In this document: positions 54,911-61,046 of the stretch, one piece after another
How the letters are laid out: every line of letters begins with the position of its first letter
Numbering within the stretch: the first letter of the stretch is position 1
Assembly (NCBI RefSeq): GCF_000685315.1
Contig: NZ_ARYM01000002.1
Span: 124,001 to 188,000, forward strand
Length of the DNA stretch: 64,000 nucleotides
Direction of reading: 5' to 3'
DNA from: Hyphomonas polymorpha PS728
Lineage (GTDB): Bacteria > Pseudomonadota > Alphaproteobacteria > Caulobacterales > Hyphomonadaceae
Position numbers and translations under genes: made by a program
The notes under the pieces: generated by a model
The model's input: the letters and a program-made list of their open reading frames with translations, nothing else
Told to the model about the DNA's origin: nothing
Database searches by the model: none

Positions 54911-55963
54911 TCAGCTGCCTGCGTGAGGCTTATCGGCGCTCGTCTTCCACAGCGAGAAGAGGATCGCCCCGCCCAGCAGCGCGATGGTCAGCATCAGCGA
55001 CCAGTGCGGCTCAAGGTAAGGCACGATGTGGAGTTCCTTGTAGAGCAGGAAGTTCCAGAAGATCTTGATGCCGATCAGCACCAGTACGGCGGCAAGGCCG
55101 TATTTGAGGTATTTGAACCGCTCCACGGCTGCTGACAGCATGAAATACATCGAACGCAGGCCGAGGATGGCGAAGATGTTGGATGTGTAAACGATGAACG
55201 GATCGCGGGTGACGGCAAAGATGGCCGGCACCGAGTCCACTGCAAAGATGATGTCGACCGTCTCGACCATGAACAGCGCCAGCAGCAGCGGCGTGGCATA
55301 GCGGGTCATCTTGCCGGTGTCGGGGTCGATCTTCCTGATGAAGAAGTTGTGGTTGGTGATCTCGTCGGTCACCCGCAGGCGTTTCTTCAGGAAACGGAAG
55401 ATCGGGTTCTTCTCCAGATTGAGCTCTTCCTCTTCGGGGCCTTCGCCGGGGATCAGCATCTTGCCGCCCGTGTAGAGCAGGAAGGCGGCGAAGATAAACA
55501 ATACCCAGGTGAACTCGTTGACCACCGCCGCGCCCAGCGAGATGAAAATCCCCCGGAACACGATGGCGCCCAGGATGCCCCAGAACAGCACCCGGTGCTG
55601 ATATTCCCGGGGCACGGCAAAGAAGGTGAACACCATGCCGATGACGAAGATGTTGTCGAAGGCAAGCGCGGTCTCAAGCAGATAGCCGGTGGCGAACTGG
55701 ACCGCAGCCTGCTGGTTGAGGTTTTCCGGGCTGTTGTAGAATTGTGGGTCCGGCTCGTAGCCGAAATAGATGTAGAAGCCGAAGGCCACGGCGAGCGAAG
55801 CAAAGCAGGACCACATGATGGCGCTTTTCTTCGGGGAGATGACCTCGTCTTTCTTGTTCAGCAGGCCAAGATCGACCCAGAGCAGAAAACAGATGAGGGA
55901 GAGAAAAGCGGTCCACAGCCATAAGGGCTGCGCCGCATATTCCACGGTCAGGAAATCTGGCAT
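54911..55963 (-). CDS. TerC family integral membrane protein
   Basis: This 350-residue protein has about nine transmembrane helices. It contains ETALAFDNIFVIGMVFTFF and VETVDIIFAVDSVPAIFAVTRDPFIVYTSN, whose acidic residues within helices are the TerC hallmark. Relatives such as Alx export manganese or calcium or aid secreted metalloproteins. I looked for a yybP-ykoY manganese riboswitch in the upstream bases and did not recognise one. The ATG at 55963 begins the first helix region; 47 further in-frame codons upstream look non-coding. Confidence 0.9.
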   Translation of the reverse strand: MPDFLTVEYAAQPLWLWTAFLSLICFLLWVDLGLLNKKDEVISPKKSAIMWSCFASLAVAFGFYIYFGYEPDPQFYNSPENLNQQAAVQFATGYLLETALAFDNIFVIGMVFTFFAVPREYQHRVLFWGILGAIVFRGIFISLGAAVVNEFTWVLFIFAAFLLYTGGKMLIPGEGPEEEELNLEKNPIFRFLKKRLRVTDEITNHNFFIRKIDPDTGKMTRYATPLLLALFMVETVDIIFAVDSVPAIFAVTRDPFIVYTSNIFAILGLRSMYFMLSAAVERFKYLKYGLAAVLVLIGIKIFWNFLLYKELHIVPYLEPHWSLMLTIALLGGAILFSLWKTSADKPHAGS

Positions 55964-56126
55964 GATTGGGGTGCCGTCAAAGCAGTGCGCCGCGTCCGCG
56001 CGTGTTGCTTCAAGGTTCCGACATCGCGCTTGCCGCCGCAAACACCAGAGGGGCCCGGACCCGGTTGACGCCGCGCAGGGTAGATCAAGCACCAGCGCCG
56101 TCAAGCCTCGCCGCGCCGCTGTCAGT

Positions 56127-57464
56127 CTACATCCAAAGGCTGAGCAACCCTGCCAGCGCGCAGCCCAGGACGACCAGAACGATGTTCACCTTGTAGCGGA
56201 TCAGGGCAATTGCAGCGCCGGCCGCAATAACCATGGCCAGCAGATCCGGCTGCGTAAGGTCTGGCAGGGAGAGGTGGCTACCCCAGGGCAGGGGCGTGTT
56301 GATCGCGCCCCGGAACAACACCGCCATCCCGAACACGGCTGCCACCTTGGCTATGATCCCGAACACAGCGGCAGTAATCGCCTGCAATATGCCGGCCGCC
56401 GCCCGGCTGCGCCGCAACCCCTCCGAAAAGGGAGCGCCGGCAAAGATCCACACGAAGGAGGGGGCAAAGGTGCACCAGCTAGCCATGAGCGCTGCGGCGG
56501 CGGCCAACCACAGCCCGCCGCCTTCCGTCTGCCAACCGGCCATGAAGCCGACGAACTGGTTGACCAGCACCAGCGGTCCTGGTGTCGTTTCGGCAAGGCC
56601 GAGGCCATCGATCATCTGCGGCGCCGTGAGCCAGCCTTCAGCTTCCACCGCCTGCTGCTGCAGATAGGCCAGAACGGTATAAGCCCCGCCAAAGGTCAGC
56701 ACCGCCAGCTTGGAAAAGAAGACGCCGACCTTGGTAAGCACATGATCCGGCCCGAGCATCACCATGGCGGCGATCAGCGGGGCAAACCAGAGCGCCCCCC
56801 AACTGGCCGCAGCCTTCAATGCTCTTGCGGCGCTGGCCTTTTCCGCAGGGATGGGGAGCGCTGCTGTGGCAGGCCTTGGCTGCGAGAGGCTGCGTATGAG
56901 GCCAATCGCTGCCGCCAGGCCGATCACCAGCGGGAAGGGCATCTGGAACAGGAAGAGGCCGAGGAAAGCCGCCGCAGCCAGGGCAATATCCTGGGGGCCT
57001 TTGAGCGCCCGGCGGCCGACCTTGACCAGCGCTTCCAGAATAAAGCCGATCACCGCCGCCTTCACGCCGTAGAAAAGGGCGGCCACCACGGGCAGCGTGC
57101 CCCAGGCGGCATAAAGCCAGGTCAGCGCGAACACGATCAGGGCGCCGGGCAGCACGAACAGCAGTCCGGCAATCACCCCGCCGGTCACGCTGCGCAGGCG
57201 CCATCCGGCATAGGTGGCCAGCTGCTGCGCCTCTGGGCCGGGCAGCAACATGCAGTAGTTAAGCGCGTGCAGGTATTCGGCCTCACCGATCCACCGCTTC
57301 TCCTCCACGAAGACGCGGTGCATCAGGGCGATCTGCCCCGCCGGGCCGCCAAAGCCGAGACAGCCGACGCGAAAGCTGGCCGAGGCGAGCTCCTTCAGGC
57401 TGGGCGAGGGGGCAGCGGCTTCCGTCACGGGTGTGTGGTTTCGCAGAAGCTGCCGCAAAGACAA
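56127..57464 (-). CDS. chrA: Chromate transporter ChrA
   Basis: This 445-residue member of the CHR family is the long form with two homologous halves. The first starts ASASFRVGCLGFGGPAGQIALM and the second near LTFGGAYTVLAYLQQQAV; PGPEAQQLATYAGWR and TTPGPLVLVNQFVGFMAG are the paired signature loops. It exports chromate. No chrB regulator is visible. The start is 60 bases from the histidine leader on the other strand, so the two share a divergent promoter region. Confidence 0.92.
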   Translation of the reverse strand: MSLRQLLRNHTPVTEAAAPSPSLKELASASFRVGCLGFGGPAGQIALMHRVFVEEKRWIGEAEYLHALNYCMLLPGPEAQQLATYAGWRLRSVTGGVIAGLLFVLPGALIVFALTWLYAAWGTLPVVAALFYGVKAAVIGFILEALVKVGRRALKGPQDIALAAAAFLGLFLFQMPFPLVIGLAAAIGLIRSLSQPRPATAALPIPAEKASAARALKAAASWGALWFAPLIAAMVMLGPDHVLTKVGVFFSKLAVLTFGGAYTVLAYLQQQAVEAEGWLTAPQMIDGLGLAETTPGPLVLVNQFVGFMAGWQTEGGGLWLAAAAALMASWCTFAPSFVWIFAGAPFSEGLRRSRAAAGILQAITAAVFGIIAKVAAVFGMAVLFRGAINTPLPWGSHLSLPDLTQPDLLAMVIAAGAAIALIRYKVNIVLVVLGCALAGLLSLWM

Positions 57465-57486
57465 GCCACGAAATCTGGCGATATTG

Positions 57487-57515
57487 TTGACTTTTCATGC
57501 CTGGCTGCGTATCGG
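57487..57515 (+). promoter_or_regulatory. Probable promoter of the his leader
   Basis: TTGACT at 57487-57492 is followed by a 17-base spacer and TATCGG at 57510-57515. The predicted start of transcription at about 57522-57523 is at or next to the leader ATG at 57524. Confidence 0.6.
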
Positions 57516-57523
57516 CCCCGGCA

Positions 57524-57562
57524 ATGAACACAGGCATGCACCACCATCATCACCCCGCATGA
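57524..57562 (+). CDS. hisL: Histidine leader peptide (hisL-like), probably leaderless
   Basis: A 12-codon ORF encodes Met-Asn-Thr-Gly-Met, then five consecutive His codons, Pro, Ala and a TGA. An inner ATG at 57536 is an alternative start. The promoter prediction puts the transcript start within two bases of the first ATG, so the mRNA may be leaderless. Runs of His codons ahead of his genes are the classical sensor of charged tRNA-His in attenuation. hisS, hisZ and hisG follow. The His run and mutually exclusive stems downstream are visible; the regulation itself is inferred. Confidence 0.8.
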   Translation: MNTGMHHHHHPA

Positions 57563-57677
57563 CGCGCCGCTGAGGCGCGAACCGGTCCGGCTGCGCCTCT
57601 GAAACGTGTTCCTCCCCCCCGAGAACCAGACCAGATGCGGCAGGCCGAACGGGCCCGCCTCACGGCCTTTGTGCCGC
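57563..57677 (+). promoter_or_regulatory. Candidate his attenuator region
   Basis: Stem 1 (57563-57568 with 57574-57579) directly follows the leader stop. Stem 2 (57572-57578 with 57593-57599) uses the same right-hand bases, so the two exclude each other. A third, longer stem-loop (57637-57647 with 57663-57668 and 57673-57677, with a 4-base bulge) is followed by a short CTTTCC, a weak terminator. Bases 57656-57661 in its loop could also pair with 57572-57577. Confidence 0.6.
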
Positions 57678-57739
57678 CTTTCCAATCGGGCTGCCTGCGG
57701 TTATTGCGGGGCCAGCCGGCAAACAGGATCTGAAGACCC

Positions 57740-59221
57740 ATGAGCACCAAGGACGCCCGCCCCCTCTCTGGCAAGGATCTCGCCCGCAAGCCGCGCGGCT
57801 TTCCCGACAAGCGCGAGGCCCTGATCCATGCCCAGGCGAAGCTCGTGGAGACGGTGACCGGGGTTTACCGGCAATGGGGCTTTGAGGCGCTCGATACCGG
57901 GGCGTTTGAATATGCTGACGCGCTCGGCAAGTTCCTGCCCGATTCTGATCGTCCCAATGCCGGCGTGTTCTCCCTGCAGGATGATGACGAGCAGTGGATG
58001 GCGCTGCGCTATGATCTGACAGCGCCGCTTGCCCGTTTCGTGGCCGAGCAGGGGCAGGGGCTTGGCCGCCCGTTCCGCCGCTATGCTGCTGGGCCTGTCT
58101 GGCGCAATGAGAAGCCCGGCCCTGGCCGGTTCCGCGAATTCTGGCAGTGCGACGCCGATACGGTCGGCGCGCCCGGCCTGCATGCCGATGCCGAGATGAT
58201 CGCCATGGGCGCCGAAGCGCTCCGCGCGCTGGGCATGAAGCCCGGAGAGTTCGTCATCCGCGTCAACACGCGGCGGCTGCTCAACGGTGTGCTGGACGGG
58301 GTGGGCGCGACCTCTGGCGACACCCGCCTCGCCATCCTGCGCGCGCTCGACAAGCTCGACCGTCTCGGCGCTTCGGGCGTGGCGGACCTCCTCGGCGCAG
58401 GCCGCAAGGACGAGAGCGGCGACTTCACCAAGGGCGCCGGGCTCGGAGCGGAAGAAGTCAAACGCGTGCTCGCCTTTGCCGAGGCGGGCGCTGAGACCCG
58501 CGCCATGACGCTGGCCAATCTCGCCAAGGCGGCCGGCAGCACGGAAGAGGGCAAGGCAGGCCTCGGAGAGCTGGAAGCCATCGCGCTGGCGCTTGAGGCG
58601 CTCGGCGCGCCTGAGGACGATGTCAAGATCGATCCCTCCGTGGTCAGAGGGTTGGAATATTATACCGGGCCTGTGTTCGAGGCAGAATTGCTGCGTGAGG
58701 TGACCGGCGAAGACGGCAAGAAATACCGCATCGGCTCCATCGGGGGCGGCGGGCGGTATGATGATCTCGTCGCGCGCTTTACGGGCGAGACCGTGCCCGC
58801 CACCGGCTTTTCCATCGGCATCTCGCGGCTGGCGGCGGCCCTCGCCATCCTCGGCGAAACCGGAAAGCTGGATGGTCCGGTGGTCGTGCTCAATCTGGAC
58901 AAGGATAATCCCGGCATCGCGCTTGGTCTTGCCGCAGAGCTGCGCCGCGGCGGCATCCGGGCGGAAGCCTATATGGGCGCCTCGGGCATGCGCCCGCAGA
59001 TGAAATATGCTGACCGGCGGTCTTCACCCGCTGTCGTGATCGTCGGTACTGACGAGATCGAGAAGGGCACGGTTACCATCAAGGATCTGGAGATCGGCGC
59101 GCAGAAGGCCAAGGCGATTTTCTCCAATGAGGAATACCGCGAAGCGCGCCCCGGCCAGATAGAAGTGCCGCGCGCCGAAATGGTCGAGACTGTCCGCCGT
59201 ATCGTCGAGGCCCACGCATGA
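57740..59221 (+). CDS. hisS: Histidyl-tRNA synthetase, long alphaproteobacterial form
   Basis: This 493-residue class II synthetase has the motif 2 region RRYAAGPVWRNEKPGPGRFREFWQCD, the histidine-specific RGLEYYTGPVFE, and motif 3 GGGGRYDDLV...TGFSIGISRLA, with an anticodon-binding domain at the end. It is about 70 residues longer than the E. coli enzyme. In alphaproteobacteria of this lineage HisRS is known to accept tRNA-His lacking the extra G-1. The 3' end overlaps hisZ by ATGA. Confidence 0.95.
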   Translation: MSTKDARPLSGKDLARKPRGFPDKREALIHAQAKLVETVTGVYRQWGFEALDTGAFEYADALGKFLPDSDRPNAGVFSLQDDDEQWMALRYDLTAPLARFVAEQGQGLGRPFRRYAAGPVWRNEKPGPGRFREFWQCDADTVGAPGLHADAEMIAMGAEALRALGMKPGEFVIRVNTRRLLNGVLDGVGATSGDTRLAILRALDKLDRLGASGVADLLGAGRKDESGDFTKGAGLGAEEVKRVLAFAEAGAETRAMTLANLAKAAGSTEEGKAGLGELEAIALALEALGAPEDDVKIDPSVVRGLEYYTGPVFEAELLREVTGEDGKKYRIGSIGGGGRYDDLVARFTGETVPATGFSIGISRLAAALAILGETGKLDGPVVVLNLDKDNPGIALGLAAELRRGGIRAEAYMGASGMRPQMKYADRRSSPAVVIVGTDEIEKGTVTIKDLEIGAQKAKAIFSNEEYREARPGQIEVPRAEMVETVRRIVEAHA

Positions 59222-60339
59222 AACACGACGCTCTTGTGGCGGTTGCCCGCGCGGTCGTGGAGACGGCTGGCGGCACGCCGATTGACCCTGACTATGTTCT
59301 GCCAGCGGACATTCCGCTGGAGCTTTCCGGCGAAGCTGTCCGCGCCCGGCTCTGCGTGTTCCAGGATTATCGCGGCGCCGACATGGCGATGCGGCCAGAC
59401 CTGACGCTGCCTGTCGCCCAGCGGGAAGCGGCCCGGCGCGCAGCCGGCGAGGGCGGCGCGAAGACCTATACCTATGCCGCGCGCGCCTTCCGCATACCCG
59501 TTGCGCCGGACGATCAGCTGGAATTCACCCAAGTGGGCCTCGAACGCTTCGGCCATGAGGCGAGCGCAGAGGCCGATGCCGAACTCTTCGCGCTGATCCA
59601 CCGCGCGGTGGAAGCCTGCGGCGTGGCGCCTTCCGGCGTCATCATGGGCGATCTGGCAATCTTTCCGGCCTTCATTGATGCGCTTGGCCTGCCCGGCGTG
59701 ACGGCGGATCTGCTGAAGCGCGCCTTCCGGCAGGAGGGCGGCGTGCGCGCGGTGCTGGACGCGGCCTCCCGCCCGCTGGAGCCTGATGTGGCAGCAGTGC
59801 TGAGCGCGGCCGACCCGGTCGCTGCGCTTGGCAATCTGCTCTCTGAGCGGAATATTCCGATGGCCGGGGGGCGAAGCCTCGCCGAGATCGTCGAGGGCCT
59901 GAAAGCACGCTGCGCGGCCATTGAGGCAGGGGGCCTCAGCCAGGCCGCGCGCGATGTGCTGCTTGCCCTGCGTGAGGTCGATTGCCCGCTGGGAGAGGCG
60001 GCCGGAACGCTTTCCGCACTTGCCGAGACCCATGGGCTTGGCGCCGTGCCCGGCGCCATTGCGGCGCTCAAGGCGCGGGCCGAGGCGATCCTCGCGCGGG
60101 TGCCGGCTGCCGCGCAGACCGCGCGCTTCCGCACGGGCTTTGGCCGCCGTTTCACCTATTATGATGGGTTTGTATTTGAAATCCTCGCGCCGGGTCTGGA
60201 ACTCACCCAGCCGGTTGCCGCAGGCGGACGGTATGACGGCCTGCTGACGGGGCTTTCCGGCGGCAAGGTGTCGGCAACCGGGATCGGCGGCGTGGTGCGG
60301 CCGGACCGTATGGTGCGTGTGCGGAGGGCAGGAGCATGA
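59218..60339 (+). CDS. hisZ: ATP phosphoribosyltransferase regulatory subunit HisZ
   Basis: This 373-residue HisRS paralogue lacks a full catalytic site but keeps the fold: MRPDLTLPVAQREAARRA, EFTQVGLERFG and the late GRRFTYYDGFVFEILAPG, AAGGRYDGLLTGLSGG. HisZ is needed for activity and histidine feedback of the short HisG, which follows directly. It is coupled to hisS and hisG by two ATGA overlaps. The gene trio is common in alphaproteobacteria. Confidence 0.93.
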   Translation: MKHDALVAVARAVVETAGGTPIDPDYVLPADIPLELSGEAVRARLCVFQDYRGADMAMRPDLTLPVAQREAARRAAGEGGAKTYTYAARAFRIPVAPDDQLEFTQVGLERFGHEASAEADAELFALIHRAVEACGVAPSGVIMGDLAIFPAFIDALGLPGVTADLLKRAFRQEGGVRAVLDAASRPLEPDVAAVLSAADPVAALGNLLSERNIPMAGGRSLAEIVEGLKARCAAIEAGGLSQAARDVLLALREVDCPLGEAAGTLSALAETHGLGAVPGAIAALKARAEAILARVPAAAQTARFRTGFGRRFTYYDGFVFEILAPGLELTQPVAAGGRYDGLLTGLSGGKVSATGIGGVVRPDRMVRVRRAGA

Positions 60340-61046
60340 GCCGGATCACGATTGCGGTTCCCTCCAAGGGGCGTCTCAAGGAACAGACTGAAGACTGGCT
60401 CGCCAGCATTGGCCACACCGTTCGCCAGATTGGCGGGGAGCGGGGGTACACGGCAGAGATTGAAGGCATCGATGCCGAAGTGCGTCTTCTCTCGGCCAGC
60501 GAGATCGCGCAGGGCCTGATCGAGGGCAGCCTGCATCTGGGCGTAACCGGGGAAGACCTGCTGCATGATCTGTCGCCGGATGGTCCGGTGGATTTCGAAG
60601 TGCTCAAGCGCCTCGGATTTGGCGGGGCTGATGTTGTGGTTGCCGTGCCCCAGGCCTGGTTTGATGTTGACACGATGGCAGATCTGGAAGCCGCCGGCGC
60701 CGCCTTTCGCAAGGCGCATAACCGCCGCCTGCGGGTCGCCACCAAATATCTGCGCATCACCCGGCGATATTTTGCCCAGAAATCGGTGGGCGAATATCGC
60801 CTCGTCGAAAGCGCTGGCGCCACAGAGGCCGCCCCTGCCACCGGCACGGCGGATGTGGTGGTCGATATCACCACAACCGGCGCCACCTTGCGGGCCAATG
60901 GTCTCAAGGTGCTTGATGATGGGGTAATCCTGAAAAGTCAGGCTTCGCTTACGCGCTCAATCCGGGCGCCCTGGAGCGAGGAGGCGAACAGTATCGTACA
61001 ATCCCTTATGCGTCAGCCGGGCACAGGGACAAAACGCCCCCTTTAA
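60336..61046 (+). CDS. hisG: ATP phosphoribosyltransferase, short-form HisG
   Basis: This 236-residue HisG lacks the C-terminal regulatory domain of the long form (about 300 residues), as expected next to hisZ. The start ITIAVPSKGRLKEQTEDWL and the later VVDITTTGATLRANGLKVLDDG, the PRPP-binding segment, are characteristic. It joins ATP and PRPP in the first step of histidine synthesis. The ATG overlaps the hisZ stop. It ends the hisS-hisZ-hisG unit; no other his gene is in the window. Confidence 0.94.
   Translation: MSRITIAVPSKGRLKEQTEDWLASIGHTVRQIGGERGYTAEIEGIDAEVRLLSASEIAQGLIEGSLHLGVTGEDLLHDLSPDGPVDFEVLKRLGFGGADVVVAVPQAWFDVDTMADLEAAGAAFRKAHNRRLRVATKYLRITRRYFAQKSVGEYRLVESAGATEAAPATGTADVVVDITTTGATLRANGLKVLDDGVILKSQASLTRSIRAPWSEEANSIVQSLMRQPGTGTKRPL

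Follow-up and report, generated by a model that had tools for sequence, protein, structure and literature searches.

A probably leaderless histidine-codon leader and putative attenuator ahead of hisS-hisZ-hisG in Hyphomonas polymorpha PS728

Hyphomonas polymorpha PS728 is an alphaproteobacterium of the family Hyphomonadaceae, within the order Caulobacterales. Here we describe a short reading frame with a run of histidine codons ahead of its hisS-hisZ-hisG genes. The window analysed is a stretch of 64,000 nucleotides (NCBI RefSeq assembly GCF_000685315.1, contig NZ_ARYM01000002.1, positions 124,001 to 188,000), and all positions are those of the window unless a locus is named. The genes concerned are:

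57524-57562, + strand: leader ORF, MNTGMHHHHHPA followed by a stop codon; 12 codons, five of them His (CAY codons at 57539-57553)
57740-59221, + strand: hisS, histidine--tRNA ligase (TIGR00442, 367 bits, cut-off 286.75)
59218-60339, + strand: hisZ, ATP phosphoribosyltransferase regulatory subunit (the top NCBIfam matches are HisZ models, every one below cut-off)
60336-61046, + strand: hisG, catalytic subunit (TIGR00070, 173.4 bits, cut-off 75.75)

The leader ORF starts 216 bases 5' of the hisS start, hisS overlaps hisZ by 4 bases and hisZ overlaps hisG by another 4, and a divergent chromate-transporter-like gene lies upstream of the leader. The 12-codon ORF with five consecutive His codons that the first-pass annotation had placed at 57524 is present there. 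Its His run is the sole run of five CAY codons within the window, where about 0.0016 such runs are expected by chance (64 kb, both strands, base composition). The naming of hisS-hisZ-hisG as the controlled genes was borne out by the profile matches and by gene order, since hisZ and hisG stand behind hisS in 76 of 80 named loci. Elsewhere in the window, an Rfam terC RNA (RF03067, 49.3 bits) was found at about 56009-56066 on the minus strand (L001:45-102), near the start of gene 54911-56104, which we take to be TerC-like.

We searched 105 genomes of the family, 100 of which had a hisS match, and read 99 upstream regions of up to 700 bases each; genome G112, with a C-terminal hisS match only, was left out of this reading. 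The leader script, which requires three His, returned 64 leaders, and inspection by eye contributed one more (L172, MSYGPHPHCA, with two His), giving a His-rich leader before hisS in 65 of the 99 loci. Carriers comprise 35 of 40 Hyphomonas (genus group g1), 28 of 28 members of g15, many of them named Henriciella, and 2 of 2 of g21. The script found no leader in g14 (3 loci), g16 (3), g17 (1), g18 (1), g19 (7, including Ponticaulis) and g22 (14); the g16 and g19 genomes gave three weak matches to the leader model (E 0.002-0.0098). Summed over the 64 leaders the His codons are CAC 181 times and CAT 164 times, and the peptide drifts outside the His run. The first-pass annotation had staked its reading on retention of the His codons in close relatives, and in Hyphomonas they mostly survive: four genomes are without the leader, and a fifth non-carrier (L010) has just 209 bases upstream of hisS. 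In a hisS tree of 53 rows of our choosing, non-carriers fall within groups of carriers, with L008 next to L009 (100/95) and L030 in a group of three; the leader was therefore lost or replaced more than once in Hyphomonas. The four (L007, L008, L015 and L030) have a different compact region adjoining hisS, CGGCGCTAGGTGCGGGGCGAA or a variant of it.

All strong model matches within the family sit before hisS. Beyond the leader sites the model gave 12 weaker matches in the family (E 6.8e-6 to 0.0098). Three of these, in G033, G023 and G014, were inspected as candidate second copies and rejected, two resembling His-tailed protein ends and one being without a His-rich ORF. Among 385 genomes of the class, nine weak matches fell outside the family, and the script found in these nine no His-run leader of the Hyphomonadaceae type; one of the out-of-family matches, L251, which holds MKTGLHPHEHHAEKAMP and a stop codon, was not judged a relative. 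In other families of the order the script found a His run in just 2 of 24 loci (L037 and L038). The model misses the Caulobacteraceae form of the leader described below, so the out-of-family search is no measure of wider occurrence.

The leader is preceded by a promoter-like pair (P1), and a further promoter-like sequence lies close to hisS:

57487-57492, + strand: -35 element TTGACT of the leader promoter P1
57510-57515, + strand: -10 element TATCGG, 17 bases from TTGACT and 8 bases 5' of the leader ATG at 57524
57689-57717, + strand: hairpin shortly 5' of hisS, above a weak second promoter-like sequence, TTTCCA-17-TATTGC (with it, 57679-57717), identified by eye

The -35/-10 pair with its 17-base spacing is as the first-pass annotation had described it. 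The same geometry precedes 64 of 64 leaders: TTGAC, 17 bases, and a TA hexamer whose end lies 6-10 bases 5' of the ATG. Just 1 of 64 has an SD-like motif within 20 bases of the leader ATG. A consensus scanner applied to 57400-57800 reported no sigma-70-like promoter at its thresholds. Judged from the sequence, transcription probably begins at or close to the leader ATG, as the first-pass annotation had also proposed, and the sensor ORF would be leaderless; the ribosome would then load on the 5' end of the mRNA. The second promoter-like sequence, TTCACA-N17-TA[TA]GCG or variants under a hairpin 5' of hisS, was found with 60 of 65 leaders by loose criteria. It is strict in most Henriciella and weak in Hyphomonas, the window's own sequence was not among the matches to these criteria, and the arms of the hairpin vary between species. 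If this promoter is real, hisS is only partly under the attenuator.

Between the leader ATG and the second promoter-like sequence lie the following complementary segments:

57526-57531, + strand: arm A, GAACAC, beginning with the G of the leader ATG; A' is its complement
57563-57568, + strand: arm B, CGCGCC, adjoining the stop codon (stem alignment)
57572-57579, + strand: arm C, GAGGCGCG, common to B:C and C:D (stem alignment)
57592-57599, + strand: arm D, UGCGCCUC (stem alignment)
57606-57611, + strand: arm A', GUGUUC, a conserved motif 3' of D; possible partners are arm A and GAAC at 57623-57626
57637-57646, + strand: arm E, GCGGCAGGCC (GAGGCAGGCC in many relatives), a possible partner of D (predictions and by eye)
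57637-57677, + strand: larger terminator-like stem, -20.7 kcal/mol; present in the window, not conserved, without a U-tract

Stem B:C joins CGCGCC at 57563-57568 to GGCGCG at 57574-57579 (-11.5 kcal/mol), and stem C:D joins 57572-57579 to 57592-57599 (-15.7 kcal/mol). The two mutually exclusive stems of the first-pass annotation are thus present, overlapping and conserved; the bases common to both are 57574-57579. It had also proposed checking their covariation within Hyphomonadaceae. Both stems are paired nearly throughout, B:C in 99.7% of cells and C:D (seven pairs counted) in 97.2%, against 17-65% and 29-75%, respectively, for slid controls. Stem C:D has double changes in three cells (a count reached by 7 of 500 shuffles) and a covariation score matched by 2 of 500 shuffles, with 280 of 500 shuffles likewise yielding one pair changed on both sides; B:C has one double change only (17 of 500 as high). 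The support from covariation is small because the letters of the arms hardly change. A compensating change in D:E, GTCTC/GAGAC, was seen by eye in L009.

What would be the first bases of the mRNA, arm A, are complementary to the GUGUUC motif behind the stems and covary with it across the alignment, a feature that is new here. The motif is present in 60 of 64 leaders, about 2-10 bases 3' of arm D. The match reads (AU)GAACAC with GUGUUC(AU) in Hyphomonas and in MN-type Henriciella, and AUGAAAAC with GUUUUCAU in MK-type Henriciella; in the window it comprises six pairs. Over 65 leaders the mean complementarity is 7.18, compared with 6.30 for permuted partners (0 of 2000 as high, in a permutation that ignores descent) and 4.15 for shuffled sequence. 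Among the 60 leaders with the motif, positions 3-8 are paired in 59-60, against only 38 for the A and 39 for the U of the AUG; in many relatives the whole AUG is matched. Position 6 is C-G in 46, A-U in 11, U-G in 2 and unpaired in 1; the main double change corresponds to essentially one clade.

Folding was compared between groups of leaders, with L029 (Hyphomonas) counted in two of them. For the MK-type leaders (n=11, ten of g15 and one Hyphomonas) the median ensemble switches, giving B:C together with D:E when the ribosome is stalled on the first His codon and C:D when it stands at the stop codon. Hyphomonas (n=35) and MN-type g15 (n=14) folded at equilibrium without a switch, so that a kinetic switch must be assumed for Hyphomonas. 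With prefixes ending at about A', B:C ranked above C:D in only 3 of 64 leaders of all types when the ribosome was on the first His codon, and C:D led in 63 of 64 when it was at the stop. In the medians of Hyphomonas and MN-type g15 over a longer region, a rod in which C pairs with distal sequence and D with E wins in every ribosome state, and A:A' is absent from them in all states. In MK-type leaders A:A' is predicted mainly without a ribosome (median 4.9 pairs, compared with 0.5 with the ribosome at the stop).

We consider it likely that these elements form an attenuator in which the ribosome gauges the supply of charged tRNA-His and thereby determines the amount of P1 transcript that extends into hisS-hisZ-hisG. 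Beside the observed ORF, its conservation, promoter geometry, complementarities and some covariation, we infer the start site, the stalling, the switch and the output as follows. A ribosome loaded on the 5' end would stall on the His codons when charged tRNA-His is low, leaving arm B free to form B:C; D, freed by B:C, could then pair downstream with E, and the polymerase would continue. With enough charged tRNA-His the ribosome would reach the stop codon and cover B, C:D would form, and read-through would drop. Arm A would be covered by the stalled ribosome and free with the ribosome at the stop; it may then pair with A', closing the start of the leader.

At the output step, the first-pass annotation had taken the stem at 57637-57677 for a terminator. 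We rejected it as a conserved feature: its z, from single-base shuffles with the ends of the region fixed by rule, has a median of 0.13 over 35 Hyphomonas and is -1.16 for the window, and no part of 57400-57800 passed the consensus scanner's thresholds for an intrinsic terminator. The stem is probably not the terminator. Premature termination at or after C:D is the most likely output; Rho-dependent or translational control is also possible, because there is no good U-tract.

A related leader occurs in Caulobacteraceae, in an arrangement that differs from that of Hyphomonas. A His leader of another form, for example MTRTPHHHGHHHHPTSPRGIGRVRTL and a stop codon, precedes hisS in 25 of 27 Caulobacteraceae-like loci, a biased sample as all 27 are best matches to the query; the two others are L119, with no upstream sequence, and L120, with no His ORF. 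In 24 of the 25 (L127 being dropped from the arm count) two later arms pair with repeated exchange (T-A 14, C-G 8, mismatch 2), and a GCTATA-like box stands at a similar distance from the ATG in 22 of 25. No tRNA was found in the upstream regions of these 27 loci. The Rfam Caulobacter sRNA CC3513 (RF01528) overlaps the hisS leader from the other strand in L141 and in 5 of 7 loci examined (L129:2750-2919 on the minus strand, and also L130, L132, L137, L140 and L141). CC3513 may here be an antisense RNA, or the leader itself with its strand misassigned. The Caulobacter sRNA CrfA (RF01527) was also found about 0.4-0.5 kb 3' of hisG in seven Caulobacteraceae loci (L129:6721-6856 and equivalents).

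The attenuator reading has to be weighed against the absence of an equilibrium switch and of predicted A:A' pairing in Hyphomonas and MN-type g15, the scanner's failure to report an intrinsic terminator, a second promoter-like sequence that could bypass it, the four Hyphomonas that live without the leader, and the scarcity of His runs in other families of the order (2 of 24 loci). The same His sensor might act by another output, its folds altering access to the hisS start or exposing untranslated RNA to Rho. Some attenuators hide a ribosome-binding site instead, as part of one account describes (PMC9413887). The hairpin shortly before hisS, the missing U-tract terminator and, in Caulobacteraceae, a strong covarying hairpin near hisS without a U-run all fit such an output. 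We regard it as possible, if rather less than probable: in MK-type Henriciella the sequence GUUUUC follows C:D at two to three bases, an objection weakened in turn by the fact that this run is also the complement of AUGAAAAC.

The leader might also serve mainly to yield a trans-acting small RNA or peptide, in the manner of rnTrpL/peTrpL, with control of hisS secondary since hisS would have its own promoter. The second promoter-like sequence, CC3513 over the Caulobacter leader and the Sinorhizobium meliloti precedent, as set out in part of PMC7298713, speak for this; the drift of the peptide outside the His run, the placing of arms B-D where control by ribosome position needs them and the position of every strong family match before hisS make it unlikely. 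Autoregulation by HisRS, binding to the leader RNA of its gene while the His codons play no part, would suit a conserved structure ahead of hisS, yet in-frame runs of five or six His using both codons need a translation-based reason, and we hold this autoregulation to be very improbable. Chance is practically negligible as an explanation. C+G-rich sequence does fold readily, and the 57637-57677 stem is probably a case of it; a chance origin of the ORF and of arms B-D is refuted, such His runs being expected so rarely per window and the leader being retained in the family.

In some Hyphomonadaceae the leader carries a tRNA gene. ARAGORN placed a tRNA-Gln(UUG) between leader and hisS in 7 of the 99 family loci:

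L090:2856-2929, L091:2863-2936, L094:2853-2926, L095:2858-2931 and L108:2855-2928, and also L155 and L177: extra tRNA-Gln(UUG)

Rfam tRNA scores were 59.8 bits (L090) and 56.4 bits (L108). It is an extra, divergent copy, another tRNA-Gln(UUG) being held by all seven genomes, and by eye its anticodon stem has two-sided changes among the seven with UUG constant. In several of them, again by eye, the 5' flanking sequence CGACC could pair with GGGTCG within the tRNA. All seven tRNA-bearing leaders hold Gln codons (HHHHQQT four times, HHHHQHM, QQHHHHQHS and QQHHHHHS); of the 57 leaders lacking an intact tRNA only two have any, L036, whose peptide has one Q, and L173, in which the tRNA is decayed (Fisher 5.8e-8, uncorrected for descent). 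MK-type Henriciella relatives without the tRNA read HHLHPKT, HHHHHHM or HHHHHHR, and L156 keeps a remnant of the tRNA acceptor stem (both by eye). On the hisS tree the tRNA needs two changes, one being possible. The relatives that appear to have lost the tRNA have also lost the Gln codons; these are few events, not dozens, and the joint loss is striking. It is quite conceivable, if short of probable, that the hisS attenuator of these bacteria is a two-amino-acid circuit: with His and Gln codons in the leader and the tRNA-Gln gene further along the same transcript, that gene would be transcribed more when the leader runs short of charged tRNA-Gln or tRNA-His. Should the leader function in this way, codons that a tRNA reads would control the gene for that tRNA, closing a feedback loop. 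We know of no such case, and titles and abstracts of the open-access literature yielded none.

The wider interest is that in two families a probably leaderless His-sensing attenuator would govern both the tRNA-His synthetase and the enzyme that gates histidine synthesis. The model Caulobacter belongs to one of the two families, so the attenuator can be tested in a tractable strain. If the first mRNA bases do pair with a distal motif, this may be a way of restricting a leaderless sensor to few rounds of translation. Titles and abstract starts in the open-access literature held no hisS leader in Hyphomonadaceae or Caulobacteraceae; subscription work, for example a 2004 comparative survey of attenuation, may hold one. 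Among RNA families, the Rfam His_leader (RF00514) and the T-box riboswitch model had no match up to E 5 in 56500-58500, where two chance matches to RNA families were obtained, and RF00514 had none at gathering score in L001, L090, L092, L108, L129 and L141.

The rarity that the first-pass annotation had claimed for a leaderless leader on a hisS unit was overstated: ahead of tRNA-synthetase genes, leader peptides of this leaderless type have been described in other bacteria, and in its basic kind the present case has precedents. The leader ORF of S. meliloti trpL is leaderless, and this alphaproteobacterial attenuator RNA likewise begins with the leader AUG, according to the relevant parts of PMC7298713 and PMC10117765; it reads Trp, not His, and controls trpE(G), and we liken it by description, not by sequence. 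Streptomyces lividans has leaderless leader peptides before leuS, trpS and thrS, some without a uridine run (parts of PMC8079986), thus sharing a leaderless sensor ORF before a tRNA-synthetase gene, in Actinobacteria and for other amino acids. In bacilli, which are Firmicutes, His leader peptides are predicted before hisS* and hisZ, genes of the same kind as here, with no leaderless feature described in the pertinent part of PMC2965389. Nearer at hand, Caulobacter, of the same order, has an ilv attenuator and a trpS leader CDS; these concern Ile/Val and Trp, and hisS is absent from the main text of PMC4117421.

The closest comparison is with the enterobacterial his operon leader (RF00514), which likewise has a short ORF carrying consecutive His codons; PMC9413887 treats such leaders in general. 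The Hyphomonas leader differs in that it would control hisS-hisZ-hisG, is probably leaderless, has no clear intrinsic terminator, and has first mRNA bases complementary to a distal motif. In the enterobacterial leader, too, the arms behind the ORF are laid out as alternating alternative pairings.
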